Source: an uncultured Microcaldota archaeon (lineage in GTDB: Archaea > Micrarchaeota > Micrarchaeia > Norongarragalinales > Norongarragalinaceae). Taken from it: a DNA stretch of 32,750 nt. Position numbers and translations under genes: made by a program. Where the stretch lies: positions 1 through 32,750 of the forward strand of contig CAITNU010000026.1 of assembly GCA_903893865.1 (NCBI GenBank), read 5' to 3'. The notes below the pieces were generated by a model, which did not search any database, was not told where the DNA came from, and saw only the letters and a list, made by a program, of their open reading frames with translations. Below, one piece after another: positions 3,307 through 31,479 of the stretch; the stretch's first letter is position 1, and every line of letters begins with the position of its first letter.

Positions 3307-4107
3307 TTGCGCAACCTGCAAAAACAAGTATTCGTTTTGATGATTCTGTGCGCTGCAATAGCGCTCTTAGTCGGTTACCAAACCGGCGGAGTGATTTCCG
3401 CGCCCAAGCAGAGCTGCCCGGAAGCATCTGGGCAGGCGTTTCCGACCGTAATCGCGCCCAACTCGTGCTCGAAGCAAAACTTGAATGACGAATTCTCGGT
3501 GCGCTTGAAACTGCCCGCCGTCGACAGAAACGACCAAGGCGCGCTTGCCGACCTCGTAGTCGAGCGCAGCGCTGGAGACGGCGCCGTATTCGTGCGCTTC
3601 AGCGGCAGCAGCCCGTTGATTAATCCTGATACGCAAACTTCGCTGCGCACCGCTCTCGACGTCGCGCAAAGAATCTCCGGCAAAAACCTGAACGGCAAAA
3701 ACTTGTACTACTCGATTTCCACGAGTTCCGACGTAGTCGGAGGACAAAGCGCTGGCGCGGCAATGACGATCGCAACGATCGCCGTGCTTAAAGGCGAAAC
3801 GCTGCGTCCAGACGCGTTGATTACCGGCACAATCGAAGCGGACGGAGGAATCGGGCAAGTCGGCAAGGTTTTCGAGAAAGCGCAGGCCATCAAGGCAGAA
3901 GGATACTCTTTGTTCGTAGTGCCTGCAGGCGAAGGAAGGCAGAGCGTTCCAACGAATTCTTGCGAAGAAGTGCAGGCTCCGGATGGAACGACGACGCAGT
4001 CTTGCACGACCGTGTACAAGATTGTAGACGTTGGCGAGGAAACCGGTATACGCGTCGTCGAAGCCAAGAACATCCGCGAAGCTTACGCGCTAATGAAACG
4101 CGGTTGA
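3307..4107 (+). CDS. membrane-anchored Lon-like (S16) serine-lysine protease
   Basis: The 266-aa product begins with an uncleaved or cleavable hydrophobic segment (residues 8-24), then a Lon-type proteolytic domain without any ATPase domain. The catalytic serine is S148 in GGQSAGAAMT and the catalytic lysine is K191 in GKVFEKAQAIKAEG. Their 43-residue separation is exactly that of E. coli Lon S679/K722. The active domain therefore lies outside the membrane or faces it. The TTG start at 3307 is supported by GAGG at 3293-3296 and a TATA-like TATTTAAAAT at 3261-3270; the next in-frame ATG (residue 12) would cut into the hydrophobic segment. A C-terminal insert with two cysteines (about residues 219-237) may form a disulphide. 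A second S16 protein follows at 4196. Confidence 0.88.
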   Translation: MRNLQKQVFVLMILCAAIALLVGYQTGGVISAPKQSCPEASGQAFPTVIAPNSCSKQNLNDEFSVRLKLPAVDRNDQGALADLVVERSAGDGAVFVRFSGSSPLINPDTQTSLRTALDVAQRISGKNLNGKNLYYSISTSSDVVGGQSAGAAMTIATIAVLKGETLRPDALITGTIEADGGIGQVGKVFEKAQAIKAEGYSLFVVPAGEGRQSVPTNSCEEVQAPDGTTTQSCTTVYKIVDVGEETGIRVVEAKNIREAYALMKRG

Positions 4108-4195: not shown

Positions 4196-4846
4196 ATGGC
4201 AAAACAAAAGCGTTCGCTGAACTTCCTGCTCGTCGCGGCAATAATCGTTTGCGCGGCCGCAGCCGCGCTATTCCTGGGCTACGCGCTTTTTCCTTCAACC
4301 AAGGAAACGCGTTTTCAAGCCGCTGCGATAGGCGATTCAGGTGAAGGCGTTATCGTCGATTTCGCGTTGCGCTCGCGCCCAGGCAACGGCGCGCTGCTCA
4401 TAAACGTGGAAAACGCTGAATGGCGCGCGGACGCTGAAAAGTCTTTCCGCGCAAGCCGCGAGCATGCCGAAAGCTTTCTCGGCGTTCCCCTCTCGAACCG
4501 AGATTTCGAGCTCGAGTTGCGGTCGCGGGAAGGCGGAGTGGAAGGCGAGAGCGCGGGCGCGGCGTTCGCAATAGCGATTATAGCGAATTACTTGAACGCG
4601 CAACCGCGCGAGGACGCGATTGTTTCGGCTGCGCTGGATTCAGAAAATTTAAGCAACGAAGCGCTGCTTCCAATCGGCGGAGCTGAAGAAAAAATTCTTG
4701 CTGCCGCGCGAGCGGGCAAGCGCGTTTTCGTAGTCGCGCAAGACCAGCCGTTGAAATACGAGGGCGAGCTCGCGCAGCGAATTCAAGTCGAGCGCGCGCG
4801 AACGCTGCGCGAGGCAGTGGCGTTGCTTCTCCGCCGAACGAGTTAA
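4196..4846 (+). CDS. second membrane-anchored Lon-like (S16) protease
   Basis: The 216-aa product has an N-terminal signal anchor (residues 10-31) and a compact S16 domain. S119 lies in EGESAGAAFAIAI, and K166 lies in LLPIGGAEEKILAAARAGK, which closely resembles the Lon lysine motif. The serine-lysine distance is 47, four more than in Lon, because of extra residues around ALDSENLS. It is a diverged paralogue of the upstream protease rather than a copy. CTTAAA at about 4165-4170 lies 26-31 bases upstream of the ATG, suggesting its own leaderless promoter. The pair may process membrane or exported proteins; substrates are unknown. Confidence 0.82.
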   Translation: MAKQKRSLNFLLVAAIIVCAAAAALFLGYALFPSTKETRFQAAAIGDSGEGVIVDFALRSRPGNGALLINVENAEWRADAEKSFRASREHAESFLGVPLSNRDFELELRSREGGVEGESAGAAFAIAIIANYLNAQPREDAIVSAALDSENLSNEALLPIGGAEEKILAAARAGKRVFVVAQDQPLKYEGELAQRIQVERARTLREAVALLLRRTS

Positions 4847-4911
4847 AAAGCCGTGAAGCAATATTTTAGTCCGCGCGGGGGTCGCCTAGTGGCTATGGCG
4901 GCAGCCTGCTA

Positions 4912-4944
4912 TACGCGTTTTTCTTTGAAAAAACGCTGGTGGTA
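4912..4944 (+). other. tRNA-Ser intron 1 (anticodon loop, 37/38)
   Basis: The 33-nt intron sits one base 3' of the anticodon, the canonical archaeal site. A relaxed bulge-helix-bulge can be drawn: 3-nt bulges 4910-4912 and 4943-4945 separated by a four-pair helix of 4906-4909 with 4939-4942 (two G-U pairs). The intron body forms GCGTTTTT (4915-4922) with AAAAACGC (4929-4936). Confidence 0.8.
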
Positions 4945-4979
4945 AGCTGTTAGCGCATTTCGCGCTGCGCGGGTTCGAA

Positions 4980-5028
4980 AGCACTTTTTTGCCTGCGGGC
5001 AAAAACCTGCGCTAAAAAGTGCCGAACG
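4980..5028 (+). other. tRNA-Ser intron 2 (T-loop, 59/60)
   Basis: The 49-nt intron splits the T-loop between A59 (4979) and U60 (5029). It shows a textbook bulge-helix-bulge: outer helix is the T stem, 3' bulge CGT (5027-5029), four-pair central helix TTCG (4974-4977) with CGAA (5023-5026), 5' bulge AAA (4978-4980), and inner helix GCACTTTTT (4981-4989) with AAAAAGTGC (5014-5022). Cutting after the second base of each bulge restores TTCGAAT. Confidence 0.87.
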
Positions 5029-5043
5029 TCCCGCTCCCCGCGC

Positions 5044-5061: not shown

Positions 5062-6597
5062 TCAAGCGGAGCTTTCCAGCTGCTCTAATCTTTTTGTTAT
5101 TAGTCTAAGCCTTTTTTGAAGAGCTTCGCGATCAGTTGTTGGCGGAAAGCTCACTCCCATTCGGGGAAGAGAAACTTTTCGCAGCAGTTCTTTCAATTCC
5201 GTATCGCGCAGATTAGGCAGTCCGCCTCTAATCTTGGCTTGCTGAATGGCTATGTAATAGCCGGGCTTGCCCGACTCCTTAAATTGTTTCGCAAGCAGAG
5301 GGCGGCCAAGTTTCTTGTGAGTCGTCCTAACGAACTTCAGGATTTCAAGAATTTTTTTGCGGCTCCTAGGAGGTTTAACGTACGGATCGGGTTTTTTTAG
5401 AATGTCTAGAGCGTATAGCTCCTGCAACAAGCCTCGTCTGATAACATGACTTTGCAAACCGGGAGATAATTGTTTGAATAAAACGCGTTTGTCGCCCGTA
5501 AACTCCGTGATTCGTTTAATAACTTCTTCTTTGGAAAACGGCGGGACGCTCTTGTGACCTGAAGTTTTACTGGCTTTGTAAAGCGAAAGCACCACGCCGT
5601 GTTTTGTTTCTAAGCTCGGCTTTTCTTTTAGGACGCGCAAGTAGATTTTTGCGGCCGCACGCCTAGCCAAAAACAATTCAGACGCAATCTCGTTCAACCG
5701 CTCGTGAGAACCGCCGAAGTAGGGGGATAAACGCAAAGACAAAAACGCTGCCTCAGATCCGTGTTTTTGCGAAATTTCTTTAAAAACGCGTTGCTGGCTT
5801 TCCGTTAGATGCGGAAGGTTTTCGTAAAGCAGTTTTGCATAAAACTTGTCGGCAAATTCGGGCGGCGGCCGCGAAACTGGATCCTCTTTTTTTAATAGTT
5901 CTTTGAAGTAGGGTAGGCTTTGGTTTTCTATTTGTCTTAATCGTTCTCTTGTAAACCCCAAATCAGCTGCAATCTTTTTTCGAGGCTCATTAAGCAGTAT
6001 TCGTCTTATCGGCACGCTTGACGTTATATTGATGTTTTGTGGATTATTCGGGGGATATCGCTTTCCCAACTTATCCCAAATTCTTCGGTATGCGGCGGTT
6101 ACGTCGATGATATTCTGCGCGTAGGCCGGTGTTCGTCTGTCAGAAGCCAGCACACTTGAGGGTTTAAGAAAACCATTACCGAGTTCATCATAATAAGGCA
6201 AATTATTCGTGTTTATGCTTTGTCGGAGGTACTTTTGGTTCATAGATTGCAACCAACGAGAAAAAGTTGCATTAAACATGTCCTGTAAACTGCCTGGCTG
6301 ACTCTTTTTGGAAACAAGTTTTTTGGGGTCGAAAACGCGAAGAGTTTTATTAAAAGCATCGGGAACAATTTCCGGATGCTTGGAATGGATATAGCCTTTC
6401 ACGCGTCTTGACGATAGGTAAAAAGCCAGCGGGCGGTAAACGCGAAACAACTGTTTGGCTTTTTGCTTGAAACGAGGTGGTTGCGAGGCCAAAGGCACGC
6501 CGGGAACTCTTTCCATGAGTGTTTCGCACAACGCCTTCTCTTGGAGCAGTTTCAAGTGGCCATTGGGTTTCTGCGCGGTTTGAGCGATTTCTTTCAT
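5062..6597 (-). CDS. sigma-factor-like helix-turn-helix protein
   Basis: The 511-aa product has LGFTRERLRQIE at residues 213-224 within a helix-turn-helix (206-236). This is nearly identical to the sigma-70 region 4.2 recognition helix pattern. A second region-4-like unit lies at 264-325 (LTESQQRVF, then LNEIASELFLARRAA). Residues 79-128 (AFNKTLRVFDP, then FSRWLQSMNQKYLRQSI) weakly recall sigma region 2 (FDP, an aromatic/basic helix and a conserved LRQ). About 190 further residues at the C-terminus are basic and unassigned. It may direct transcription or bind DNA or RNA in another role; archaea normally use TBP/TFB. The gene is markedly AT-richer than its neighbours and stands alone, facing tRNA-Ser. 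The ATG at 6597 has AT-rich upstream DNA with TATA-like boxes. Confidence 0.7.
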   Translation of the reverse strand: MKEIAQTAQKPNGHLKLLQEKALCETLMERVPGVPLASQPPRFKQKAKQLFRVYRPLAFYLSSRRVKGYIHSKHPEIVPDAFNKTLRVFDPKKLVSKKSQPGSLQDMFNATFSRWLQSMNQKYLRQSINTNNLPYYDELGNGFLKPSSVLASDRRTPAYAQNIIDVTAAYRRIWDKLGKRYPPNNPQNINITSSVPIRRILLNEPRKKIAADLGFTRERLRQIENQSLPYFKELLKKEDPVSRPPPEFADKFYAKLLYENLPHLTESQQRVFKEISQKHGSEAAFLSLRLSPYFGGSHERLNEIASELFLARRAAAKIYLRVLKEKPSLETKHGVVLSLYKASKTSGHKSVPPFSKEEVIKRITEFTGDKRVLFKQLSPGLQSHVIRRGLLQELYALDILKKPDPYVKPPRSRKKILEILKFVRTTHKKLGRPLLAKQFKESGKPGYYIAIQQAKIRGGLPNLRDTELKELLRKVSLPRMGVSFPPTTDREALQKRLRLITKRLEQLESSA

Positions 6598-6717: not shown

Positions 6718-6792
6718 GGGCTCGTAGCTCAGCCTGGATAGAGCGATTGCCTCCTAAGCAAGAGGTCGGGGGTTCGAATCCCCCCGAGCCCG
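6718..6792 (+). tRNA. tRNA-Arg(CCU)
   Basis: An uninterrupted 75-nt cloverleaf. The acceptor is GGGCTCG (6718-6724) with CGAGCCC (6785-6791) and discriminator G. The D stem is GCTC/GAGC. The anticodon loop CTCCTAA gives anticodon CCU. The T arm is GGGGG-TTCGAAT-CCCCC. The anticodon stem pairs four positions with an A-G mismatch at its base (27/43). It decodes AGG. CCA is not encoded. Confidence 0.95.
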
Positions 6793-6911
6793 CTTCAATT
6801 CCTTTTGCGCATTTCGAACGTTCCGCGCATTCCTCACTCTTTTTAATGCGAAAAGCGTTACTACGCGTTACTGAAGAAAAAGCACTAACCCACTGAATCG
6901 AGGGACCTGAC

Positions 6912-13110: not shown

Positions 13111-14532
13111 CTAATTGTCGTTCGCGGTTTTTCCGGTTTCGGCAAGAGGCGCGTCATAAAAACAAGGCGAGCCGGCAGACTCAAACGTTTCGTCGCCCAA
13201 ACCGCAAGACGGTTTCGCCGAACACACCGCGTATTCCTGGACGCAAGTCGCCCGTCGGTAGAAAACCACTACGCCACCGAAGTTTTCAGCGCTTTCCGTA
13301 GTGAAACCGTTCGGGCAAGGCGACAAAAACGGGAGTACGAGGCGGTAAGGCACAACAATTTTTTTCCTGCAGCGAACCTCGGTTCCGGCAACGCGCTTGC
13401 GTTCAACCGGCGTCGGCGTCGCCTCCGGGCTGGTTTGTTCAGCGGGCTCGGGATTGGAAATGGCTTCAGTTGATTGAGGCTTGCCTTCCAGAGAAAATTT
13501 CACTTCAGCTTGAAACGGATTAGTGCTCTTGCCGGAAACGTGTTTAGATTTAATCAGCTTGATGTTAACAGACTTGAGGGATGCTTCGGGGTTTTGCGAA
13601 ACCAGTAGTATCTGCTCGCCACTTTTTTTCTCTTCTAAACGAACGCCGCCCTCGGAAAAGTCGTTTGCTTGAAAACTCATTCCGCCGATTGCAACCGAAT
13701 CGCCTTCGCACAAACTGAAAACGCCAGAACCGCGGTAATTGTTGCTTAAAACCTTCAACTGCGCTTCCTCGTGAACGCCGAATTCAATTGAATCAACCTT
13801 TATTCGAGCGTCGTTTTCCGCAATCCACGGCTGATTGAGAGCCGCTTCTGCTGCGTTGCCCGTCAGTTTGACGTGGATGGTTGAGTCGGACGGCCAGTCT
13901 CGCCAATCTCTGCTAGGCTGCTGCGTTTCTTTTTGGGGTCTTCCTTTAATGCATTGATTGCCTTGAAGCACAGTCAACGCGTTTGCATTAGTAATCTTCG
14001 TTCCAGAGTTACTGTAATAAGCATCTGTTTCTCTTCCATCGGTGACAATAGTTTTTTTAAAGTAAATGCCAGACGGAAGATAATCGAAGCTGCGCACGCA
14101 AACGATTTTCGTGCTTAAAGTAACCGTTTGCGAGCCGTGTTCTTGCGAAACCTCGCCCGGCAAAAATGAAAACAGTTGCGCTGGATACGCATAAACGCCT
14201 TTCGAGTCACTTCGACTAATCTCGAGAAACGAGTCGGAAAACACTGTCTTCGTTTCCGCGTCATTGTTCGTCAAATACACTGACGACAAACTGACTTGTC
14301 CGCATTTCTTGACGGTATAAACTAGCGCGTTGGATTCGCTTCCGCTTCCGCCGTTTCCAGCTTCTCCACCTGCAAATGGAAAACCATTTGCCTGAGTCGC
14401 GCCCCTAAACTCTAAACTCACGCTAACGCTGGGCGTGGGAGTCGCTGGAGAAGCGTCTGCGTTAACCGCCCCAGCAAACAAAAAAACAGTCAGGCAAGCC
14501 GCGATGAAGCAAGCGACAGCAAAACGCACCAT
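13111..14532 (-). CDS. large secreted protein with Cys-rich C-terminus
   Basis: The 473-aa product has a clear signal peptide (about residues 4-25, ending near VNADA) and no later membrane helix, so it is probably exported and released or held by partners. The body is beta-rich with many S, T, N and sequons. A P/T/E-rich linker (about 365-385) leads to a C-terminal domain with seven cysteines (VRCRKK, LSPCPNG, RATCVQEYAVC, KPSCG, SPCFYD) that likely form disulphides. No family is recognised. The following minus-strand gene (14561-15118) is transcribed toward it and may share a transcript. Confidence 0.68.
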   Translation of the reverse strand: MVRFAVACFIAACLTVFLFAGAVNADASPATPTPSVSVSLEFRGATQANGFPFAGGEAGNGGSGSESNALVYTVKKCGQVSLSSVYLTNNDAETKTVFSDSFLEISRSDSKGVYAYPAQLFSFLPGEVSQEHGSQTVTLSTKIVCVRSFDYLPSGIYFKKTIVTDGRETDAYYSNSGTKITNANALTVLQGNQCIKGRPQKETQQPSRDWRDWPSDSTIHVKLTGNAAEAALNQPWIAENDARIKVDSIEFGVHEEAQLKVLSNNYRGSGVFSLCEGDSVAIGGMSFQANDFSEGGVRLEEKKSGEQILLVSQNPEASLKSVNIKLIKSKHVSGKSTNPFQAEVKFSLEGKPQSTEAISNPEPAEQTSPEATPTPVERKRVAGTEVRCRKKIVVPYRLVLPFLSPCPNGFTTESAENFGGVVVFYRRATCVQEYAVCSAKPSCGLGDETFESAGSPCFYDAPLAETGKTANDN

Positions 14533-29550: not shown

Positions 29551-31479
29551 TTGGTCACAAACAACGAACAAAACAACAAGGACGCAAAAAACATCATCAA
29601 GGAACTCCAAAAGCAAATCGAGGAAGTCCTCCCGCCGCAATGCGAACTCGCGCGAATCGAAGTCGAAGGCCCGCAAATTGTTCTCTACTTGAAGAACCTA
29701 AAATCGTTTTACGAAGACGAGAATTTAATAACGAAAATCGCGGGCAAAGTGCGCAAGAAAGTGTTGCTGCGAACTGACGAGACGGGACTCCACCCGCCTA
29801 CAGAGTCGCTCGCGTTCATCAAAAGCGCGATTCCGCCTGAAGCGGGCGTGCAAGACATTAAATTCGACCCGATTTTCCACGAAGTCGTAATCGAAGCGCT
29901 CAAGCCCGGACTCGCGATAGGGAAGAAAGGCGTAGTCCTCAAAGCCATTATTTTGAATACGGGTTGGAGCCCGCGCGTGCTGCGCTCGCCGACGAGCTCG
30001 AGCGAAGTTTCGAAGGCGGTTCGCAGCGCGCTCCTCGTGAACGCGGAAGAACGCAAGAAATTCTTGACCACGCTTGGAAAGAAGATTCTCGCGCCGAGCC
30101 AAGGCTGCGAGTGGATTAAGATTACGGCGCTCGGAGGCTTCAAGGAAGTCGGCCGCTCGTGCATGCTGTTGCAGACGCCGAAAAGCAACGTGATCATCGA
30201 CTGCGGAATCAACGCGGATACCAGCAACCCGCAAAAAACGTACCCTTACCTTACCGCGATGAATCTCGCTCTCGAGCAAATCGACGCAGTGATACTCACC
30301 CACGCGCACCTCGACCATTCCGGTTTTATTCCGTATCTTTACGCTTACGGTTACGACGGGCCGATTTACTGCACGCCGCCGACTCGCGATTTGATGGTTC
30401 TCCTGCAGCAGGATTGCATCAACGTCATGAACAGCGAAGGCAGCGGCGCGCCTTACGGCGAACGCGAAGTCAAGAAGGAACTCAACCACGTCATCACGCG
30501 AGAATACGGGGAAGTAACGGACGTCACGCCCGACGTGCGCTTCACGTTCCACAACGCGGGACACATTCTCGGCAGCGCCATGGTGCACCTGCATATAGGC
30601 GAAGGACTCCAAAACATCGTCGTTACGGGCGACTTGAAGTACGGCAGAACGAATCTGTTCGACAGCGCTGATACGCGTTTCCCGCGCGTCGAGACGCTCA
30701 TTATGGAGAGCACTTACGGCAGCCGCGAAGACATCATGCCTCGCCTCGAGGAGTGCGAAGCGCGGCTCGCGCAAACCATTCGCGCGACCGTGGCGCGGCG
30801 CGGGAAAACGCTTATTCCTGTTTTCGCGGTTGGGCGCTCGCAGGAAATCATGCTTGCGCTCGAACAGCAGTTGCGCAACGACAACGTTTTGTGTTACATC
30901 GACGGAATGGGGCTCGAGGCTAGCGCGATTCACACGATTTACCCTGAATATTTGCGGCACAACGTGCAGCGCCGCATTCTGCAGAACAACTCGCCTTTCG
31001 ACTCGCCCATGTTCAAGCGCGCGAACTCGAAAGACCGCAAGGACATCGTCGAGCGCGACGAGCCTTGCGTGATTCTCGCGCCCAGCGGAATGTTGAGCGG
31101 CGGGCCGAGCGTTAGTTTCTTAAAGCTCATGGCTCAGGACGAGAAAAACGCGCTTGTCTTCGTCGGTTATCAGAGCGCGCTATCGCTCGGACGCAAGATT
31201 CAGGACGGAGCGCGGGAAGTGCCTATTCTCGACGCGGTTTCGAAGAAGCAGGAGTCGCTGAAAATAAACATGAGCATTCACACGGTCGAGGGCTTCAGCG
31301 GGCACAGCGATTACTCGCAGCTCCTCGCATTCGCGAAAAACATCAGGCAAAAGCCAGCGCGCGTTATTACCGTGCACGGGGACGAGAACAAGACGGATAA
31401 TCTCGCGCGCACGATTAACCGCATGCTTCACGTTGAAACGCGCGCGCCCATGAACCTTGACACGATTCGCTTGAGGTAA
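29551..31479 (+). CDS. fttA: FttA/aCPSF1, KH and beta-CASP ribonuclease terminating transcription
   Basis: The 642-aa product has the archaeal CPSF73-like layout: two N-terminal KH domains (about residues 1-180), metallo-beta-lactamase domain with HAHLDHSG (about 251-258), NAGHILGSAM and VTGDLKYG, then beta-CASP and C-terminal MBL motifs (SGHSDYSQL, VHGDENK). In archaea it cuts nascent transcripts to end transcription. The TTG start follows GCAGGTGCTTTA, a good Shine-Dalgarno. All zinc-binding residues I can see are intact, so it should be active. Confidence 0.96.
   Translation: MVTNNEQNNKDAKNIIKELQKQIEEVLPPQCELARIEVEGPQIVLYLKNLKSFYEDENLITKIAGKVRKKVLLRTDETGLHPPTESLAFIKSAIPPEAGVQDIKFDPIFHEVVIEALKPGLAIGKKGVVLKAIILNTGWSPRVLRSPTSSSEVSKAVRSALLVNAEERKKFLTTLGKKILAPSQGCEWIKITALGGFKEVGRSCMLLQTPKSNVIIDCGINADTSNPQKTYPYLTAMNLALEQIDAVILTHAHLDHSGFIPYLYAYGYDGPIYCTPPTRDLMVLLQQDCINVMNSEGSGAPYGEREVKKELNHVITREYGEVTDVTPDVRFTFHNAGHILGSAMVHLHIGEGLQNIVVTGDLKYGRTNLFDSADTRFPRVETLIMESTYGSREDIMPRLEECEARLAQTIRATVARRGKTLIPVFAVGRSQEIMLALEQQLRNDNVLCYIDGMGLEASAIHTIYPEYLRHNVQRRILQNNSPFDSPMFKRANSKDRKDIVERDEPCVILAPSGMLSGGPSVSFLKLMAQDEKNALVFVGYQSALSLGRKIQDGAREVPILDAVSKKQESLKINMSIHTVEGFSGHSDYSQLLAFAKNIRQKPARVITVHGDENKTDNLARTINRMLHVETRAPMNLDTIRLR

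Follow-up and report, generated by a model that had tools for sequence, protein, structure and literature searches.

How does a tRNA gene come to be interrupted in the middle of its T loop, and what kind of intron sits there? The question is raised by a serine tRNA gene in the window, by which we mean the whole stretch of 32,750 nucleotides that was analysed (contig C26), from a Micrarchaeota metagenome-assembled genome of about 1 Mb (assembly 1.01 Mb, 78% complete). The original prediction, made from the letters alone, was that this gene is interrupted twice, that the second intron lies in the T loop at 59/60 within a textbook bulge-helix-bulge (BHB) motif, and that cutting at the expected places restores a canonical loop. 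All three parts were borne out. Once 33 and 49 nucleotides are removed (Table 1; a caret marks a cut or boundary throughout), ARAGORN reads the remaining 86-mer as tRNA-Ser(gct), with a minimum free energy of -44.3 kcal/mol. It has the acceptor stem GCGGGGG/UCCCCGC with discriminator G73, a five-pair anticodon stem with the loop CUGCUA^A, a long variable arm of the serine type, and the T arm GCGGG-UUCGAA^U-CCCGC, in which the UUCGAAU loop is whole again. Without splicing, the gene is missed by ARAGORN on the raw window and by the Rfam tRNA model. The T arm and intron 2 fold together as the T stem, an AAA bulge, a UUCG/CGAA helix of 4 bp, a CGU bulge and an inner stem, that is, as an hBHBh' motif with two 3-nt bulges and a 4-bp helix between them. 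Another intact tRNA-Ser(GCU), which would have spoken for a pseudogene here, was not found by BLAST, this locus being the sole full match in the 78% complete assembly.

Table 1. Coordinates of the tRNA-Ser(GCU) gene, its introns, the parts of intron 2 and a neighbouring tRNA gene, as positions in the window
Feature	Position	Strand	Basis or remark
Twice-interrupted tRNA-Ser(GCU) gene; 86 nt when mature, CCA not encoded	4875..5042	+	ARAGORN after splicing
Intron 1 (33 nt) at the canonical 37/38 site	4912..4944	+	by hand: CUGC/GUGG as central helix, UAU and UAA as bulges
Intron 2 (49 nt) in the T loop at 59/60, a dispersed-element copy	4980..5028	+	R2, 62.5 bits, E 6.9e-14
Intron 2 BHB, 5' side: UUCG helix 4974-4977, AAA bulge 4978-4980, cut AA^A	4974..4980	+	fold
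Intron 2 BHB, 3' side: CGAA helix 5023-5026, CGU bulge 5027-5029, cut CG^U	5023..5029	+	fold
P0 5' strand GCA (4981-4983) and invariant C4984	4981..4984	+	10 Watson-Crick combinations, 74 copies
P1 5' strand, pyrimidine tract and GCC (strand 1)	4986..4993	+	aligned cores
P1 3' strand GGCAAAAA, purine tract (strand 2)	4998..5005	+	aligned cores
Conserved linker CC-UGC-GCU; UGC 5008-5010 is the P0 3' strand	5006..5013	+	aligned cores, P0 covariation
Putative third strand AAAAA, mirror of the strand 2 purine run	5014..5018	+	mirror statistics
tRNA-Arg(CCU), without intron	6718..6793	+	counterpart in G006 has the element in its anticodon loop (L059)

Among the tRNA-Ser(GCU) orthologues of relatives the exons are kept and the introns differ: an intron at 59/60 is absent from three of them (G003, G009, G010), and four others (G002, G004, G006, G007) have short, unrelated T-loop introns. 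T-loop introns with the same boundary logic are thus found again in four orthologues, as well as in numerous further tRNAs, and chance can be excluded for the T-loop intron.

It had also been argued that non-canonical splice sites need an enzyme of broad specificity and that the endonuclease type of the genome should be established. The one splicing endonuclease gene that was found (contig C78) encodes a catalytic unit and then a second unit of C-terminal type. Its best match is the EndA of ARMAN-2 (4fz2/9w2k, E 1.7e-68); the alpha and betaC units align to residues 219-387 of 4fz2, the alphaN unit falls beyond the contig end, and the catalytic Tyr236, His251 and Lys282 are retained in the alignment (numbering from PMC12397907). 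As far as this fragment reaches, the host endonuclease is of the epsilon2, ARMAN-2-like layout, with its N-terminal unit off the contig, and the ligase RtcB is encoded as well. Enzymes of the epsilon2 type cleave relaxed sites, according to PMC6379350 and PMC4033280; intron 2 has a strict BHB, so relaxed specificity is not needed for its removal. We infer, without RNA data, that the epsilon2 EndA would cut the pre-tRNA at the two BHB sites, that RtcB would join the exons, and that the 33- and 49-nt introns would be released, probably as circles. Non-canonical BHB tRNA introns together with an epsilon2 EndA are described for ARMAN-1 and ARMAN-2 (Fujishima 2011, Hirata 2012, as covered by PMC6379350 and PMC12397907), which share with our host the phylum, multiple introns per tRNA and, to judge from the fragment, the enzyme type; those parts of the two accounts that were available do not mention a dispersed intron family.

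The main interest of the locus is just such a family, rather than the double interruption. Intron 2 represents one copy of an element of 40-70 nt that is dispersed among Micrarchaeota. When the tRNA-Ser gene was compared by BLAST with ten relatives, matches restricted to the intron appeared in other genes at 83-95% identity, namely in the T loops of Leu(UAA), Leu(UAG), Arg(GCG) and Leu(CAA), in the anticodon loops of Arg(CCU) and Gly, and in Gly(CCC) of the same genome. A covariance model, R1, found copies across three families of the order; with model R2 the element is present in 30 of 301 Micrarchaeota genomes (E<=1e-3), the best E value lying below 1e-6 in 18 of the element genomes, with up to 20 copies per genome among the matches listed. 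The host genome has exactly four strong R2 copies, all within RNA genes (the next match has E 0.24): in the T loop of Ser(GCU), in the anticodon loops of Gly(CCC) and Arg(UCU), and in the 16S rRNA. The last of these has, as read by hand, a BHB with the helix GGCG/CGCU and the bulges AAA and GAA, and, by an approximate count, sits near E. coli position 729. As a very short BHB intron it is like the small hairpin introns of less than 50 nt in the 16S rRNA of Thermoproteales, which are not tied to tRNA introns in the portion of that source available (PMC4496867).

Where the copies sit bears on how they spread. In many isoacceptors they interrupt the anticodon loop, the T loop or the D loop, with a common YGAAAN^UCCC boundary in the T loop, and the element accounts for the failure of annotation to find some of the tRNA genes in these genomes. 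Copies also abut the 3' ends of tRNAs, often as ..CCCCTGCA followed directly by CUUUUU in tRNA-Leu, and in Pro and Val too. The 16S rRNA intron of G007 (L141) is built from two elements that meet tail to tail, one in sense and one in antisense. Other copies stand at the 3' ends of protein genes in G024, G006 and G007, some of them supplying the stop codon, or form head-to-tail tandem arrays (G024, G028, G116). One copy lies within another (G012, contig C8), and copies occur inside other introns; one antisense copy lies inside a tRNA-Pro gene (L158), another is nested within an intron of tRNA-Val (L087), and a further two adjoin tRNA-Cys (L128, L136). By automated calls, about 38 copies in or touching tRNAs are in sense and 3 in antisense.

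Such a distribution might have arisen as has been inferred for the Thermoproteales, where tRNA introns were transposed on a large scale by a mechanism that remains unspecified (Fujishima 2010, via PMC4033280 and PMC4090602). BHB introns would then pass between exons of similar sequence, either through gene conversion or through reverse splicing, and the three-tract fold described below would be incidental. Besides the precedent, the strong sense bias in tRNAs fits this explanation, as do the confinement of the four strong copies of the host genome to RNA genes and the shared T-loop boundary, the T loop being near-identical across tRNAs. As in the transposed introns of the Thermoproteales, so far as those sources describe them, near-identical BHB introns occur in different isoacceptors and positions. 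Unlike that kind, however, the element belongs to Micrarchaeota, has a conserved three-tract fold and is not restricted to BHB sites of tRNAs: the copies in 16S rRNA, at tRNA 3' ends and ORF ends, and in nested, tandem and antisense arrangement all speak against exchange between similar exons, and a co-change of three strands is unexpected for passive introns. We regard this explanation as unlikely, though one to be kept in play. We prefer to think that the element inserts as DNA, an inference from the copies that are intergenic, nested, in tandem or antisense, and that it would be retained mostly where it is excised (introns of tRNA and rRNA) or trimmed away (tRNA 3' trailers). The sense bias in tRNAs is counter-evidence to neutral insertion of DNA, since such insertion alone does not predict it. 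No complete pair of empty and filled sites with clean ends was found; the site of one copy (L127), sought in G007, gave a partial orthologue of 339 nt.

The copies have a common order: a 5' P0 strand of 3 nt, C, U, a pyrimidine tract, a loop, the complementary purine tract, CC, the 3' P0 strand, RCU, and a purine tract that mirrors the first. In 21 aligned cores, P0 is a stem of 3 bp (columns 2-4/35-37) and P1 one of 8 bp (columns 7-14/25-32); 98.7% of their cells are paired, with changes on both sides at 7 of the 11 pairs, and the pairing falls to 34-59% if the partner strand is slid by 1-3 columns. A parser that relies on P0, P1 and a CCYNNRCUA linker, and makes no use of strand 3, recovers 92 copies (74 without duplicates), and among the 74 there are ten different P0 stems of compensatory types. 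We take it as shown that the element is structured as well as dispersed, and that it still covaries. Pairs of G with U are nearly absent, with 0 of 300 in P0 and 3 of 500 in P1 (100 copies, by a looser parser), which leans towards a constraint at the level of DNA or of a triple strand and is no proof of either. The nine-pair inner stem of the original prediction is real in the serine copy, but it is not the conserved fold: as a long stem of strands 1 and 3 it has only 72% of cells paired in the 21 copies and two weakly covarying pairs. RNAalifold with default settings returned the same mixed long-stem fold from eight copies, and this too was rejected. For the serine copy itself, nearest-neighbour energies, which leave a third strand uncounted, prefer the stem of strands 1 and 3 (-18.7) over P0/P1 (-14.4). 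In this gene, we infer, an added CGAA and the ends of the element bring strands 1 and 3 together into the inner stem with which the BHB is complete.

A conserved fold could also be the mark of a functional RNA domain, one that binds a protein or ligand or protects 3' ends, that is maintained in pre-tRNAs and 3' untranslated regions, and that was spread by selection and duplication instead of selfish mobility. Strong structural conservation with compensatory change across diverged genomes is what this idea has in its favour, along with the sense bias and the location in processed RNAs and at the 3' ends of transcripts. It sits poorly with an element that occurs in 30 of 301 genomes only, at very uneven copy number and in host genes that vary between genomes, and the near-absence of G-U is odd for a drifting RNA helix. 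On balance we find it improbable.

If the preferred reading of a DNA insertion holds, something has to move the element. MITEs, REP sequences and the attC repeats of integrons are short, non-coding and dispersed, can fold as single strands and occur in tandem copies. The element resembles them in these traits, and a short DNA element might be mobilised in trans by a Y1 transposase of the IS200/IS605 type or by a reverse transcriptase. The Y1_Tnp domain, however, was found in 5 of the 30 element genomes against 105 of the 271 others, and in none of the element-rich ones, reverse transcriptases in 4 of 30 against 35 of 271, and none of the examined element loci has a gene placed within the P1 loop, as an autonomous copy would, so that mobilisation by either enzyme is very unlikely. 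Nor is there an endonuclease ORF within an intron, intron 2 having only 49 nt and no copy with a large loop occurring in the examined loci. Seven element loci searched against Rfam matched no family, whether group I, group II or other. A viral origin was considered and rejected, exact 16- and 18-mers matching 44 and 5 viral contigs, none with the motif, and likewise one from phages or plasmids, the former giving no match and the latter one partial chance match. Of 29 genomes of the order, 27 have genes for LAGLIDADG proteins, which are for this reason uninformative on the mobiliser.

Unlike the MITE, REP and attC repeats, the element has no association with a matching transposase, prefers RNA genes and has a third purine strand. 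Along the homopurine run of P1 in the 74 copies, this strand agrees with the mirror image of strand 2 at 93.4% of positions in register 0 (about 92% without the first mirror position, which the parser fixes), at 50-64% in other registers, and at no more than 70% in direct orientation. At register 0, G is matched by G in 81% of cases and A by A in 96%, and the match is gone beyond the homopurine run. If every one of the 31 different tracts that contain G enters a single time, G meets G in 77%, against 31% after shuffling (maximum 52% in 5000 shuffles). That the mirrored tracts are mere slippage of low-complexity purines without structural meaning is scarcely credible, for although A-rich tracts inflate the raw identity (67% even when shuffled), G tracks in one register only (77-81%, against about 31% shuffled and 3-14% in other registers), and slippage yields direct rather than mirror repeats.

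Changes between orthologues of G006 and G007 can be followed strand by strand. In a Ser(CGA) intron P0 is GCA/UGC in one and GGA/UCC in the other, and strands 1, 2 and 3 of the 3' element of Leu(GAG) have each gained or lost a dinucleotide (CT, GA and AG, in that order). The geometry outlives the sequence, as four further introns of the host genome (L006, L012, L015, L019) keep the order of pyrimidine, purine and mirrored purine tract with other linkers (10/10, 10/10, 10/10 and 8/9 positions). The criterion for an intramolecular purine-motif triplex, that the third purine strand mirrors the purine strand of the duplex, is met. Mirror repeats cannot arise by copying, and a selected three-stranded fold is for this reason the best explanation, one inferred without probing or structure data. 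The single strand, whether as RNA or as single-stranded DNA, would fold as the P0/P1 hairpin, and the last purine tract would lie along P1, antiparallel to the purine strand, to give a three-stranded helix.

Known RNA triple helices include U.A-U triples (ENE, telomerase) and the A-rich minor-groove strands of H-type pseudoknots. The third strand of the element likewise accompanies a stem rich in U and A, and its polarity is that of loop 3 of a pseudoknot or of a purine-motif triplex; unlike theirs, it consists of purines that match the stem base by base, A with A-U and G with G-C, along as many as 13 positions. Stable all-RNA major-groove triplexes are not known for A-rich purine third strands, which weighs against our reading. 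If that reading is true, this would be, to our knowledge, the first natural nucleic-acid family in which the three strands of a purine-motif triple all covary, and such covariation would provide a natural purine third-strand fold tested by evolution.

Taken as a whole, the account that we consider probable is that of a spliced tRNA-Ser(GCU) whose second intron is a dispersed element inserted as DNA, with a three-stranded fold and an unidentified mobiliser. More tentatively, and at less than even odds, the element may stand for an undescribed class of tiny mobile elements that transpose or function as a single strand, folded on itself into a triple helix of one pyrimidine and two purine tracts, moved by an unidentified agent, for which the splicing of tRNA and rRNA is a hiding place where insertions become introns. 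The literature searched, which leaves subscription papers largely uncovered, describes no family of this kind from Micrarchaeota, and this is weak evidence of novelty. The origin of archaeal tRNA introns has been an open question since transposition in the Thermoproteales was inferred, and the present family, which has recognisable ends, numerous copies (nested and antisense ones among them), pairs of orthologues and a search model that works, makes insertion sites, direction and mechanism testable.

Several minor observations concern individual copies. Four lie at ORF 3' ends, for which they can provide the TAG stop (..UAG-CAC..; L086 on contig C12 of G024, L127, L247, L248). In G104, a copy of 43 nt forms part of a longer, multicopy intergenic repeat of about 140-260 nt (L143, L144, L146-L149, L151, L152). 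Five loci (L133, L088, L125, L020, L096) have extra tandem units of linker and third-strand tract (CUGCACUAAAAGAAAAAG) without a new 5' half, and in G010 (L060/L076) fragments of the tRNA-Gly 5' exon (GCGGCGAUGGUCUA) are repeated upstream with short hairpins between them.

Two of the five LAGLIDADG genes of the host genome adjoin intron-bearing tRNA genes, which is a lead only. Their ends lie either right at or some 50 nt short of tRNA-Asp(GUC) and tRNA-Val (GAC, with a D-loop intron) on contigs C30 and C53 of G000 (L024, L026), and it is possible that these free-standing proteins are trans-acting homing endonucleases. Directly upstream of the tRNA-Ser gene, adjacent proteins (window 3307-4107 and 4196-4846) have weak matches to the Lon C-terminal domain, and two minus-strand ORFs of 511 aa (5062-6597) and 473 aa (13111-14532) have no Pfam match. 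An FttA-like protein (29551-31479) is 64-74% identical to those of Micrarchaeota genomes assembled from metagenomes.
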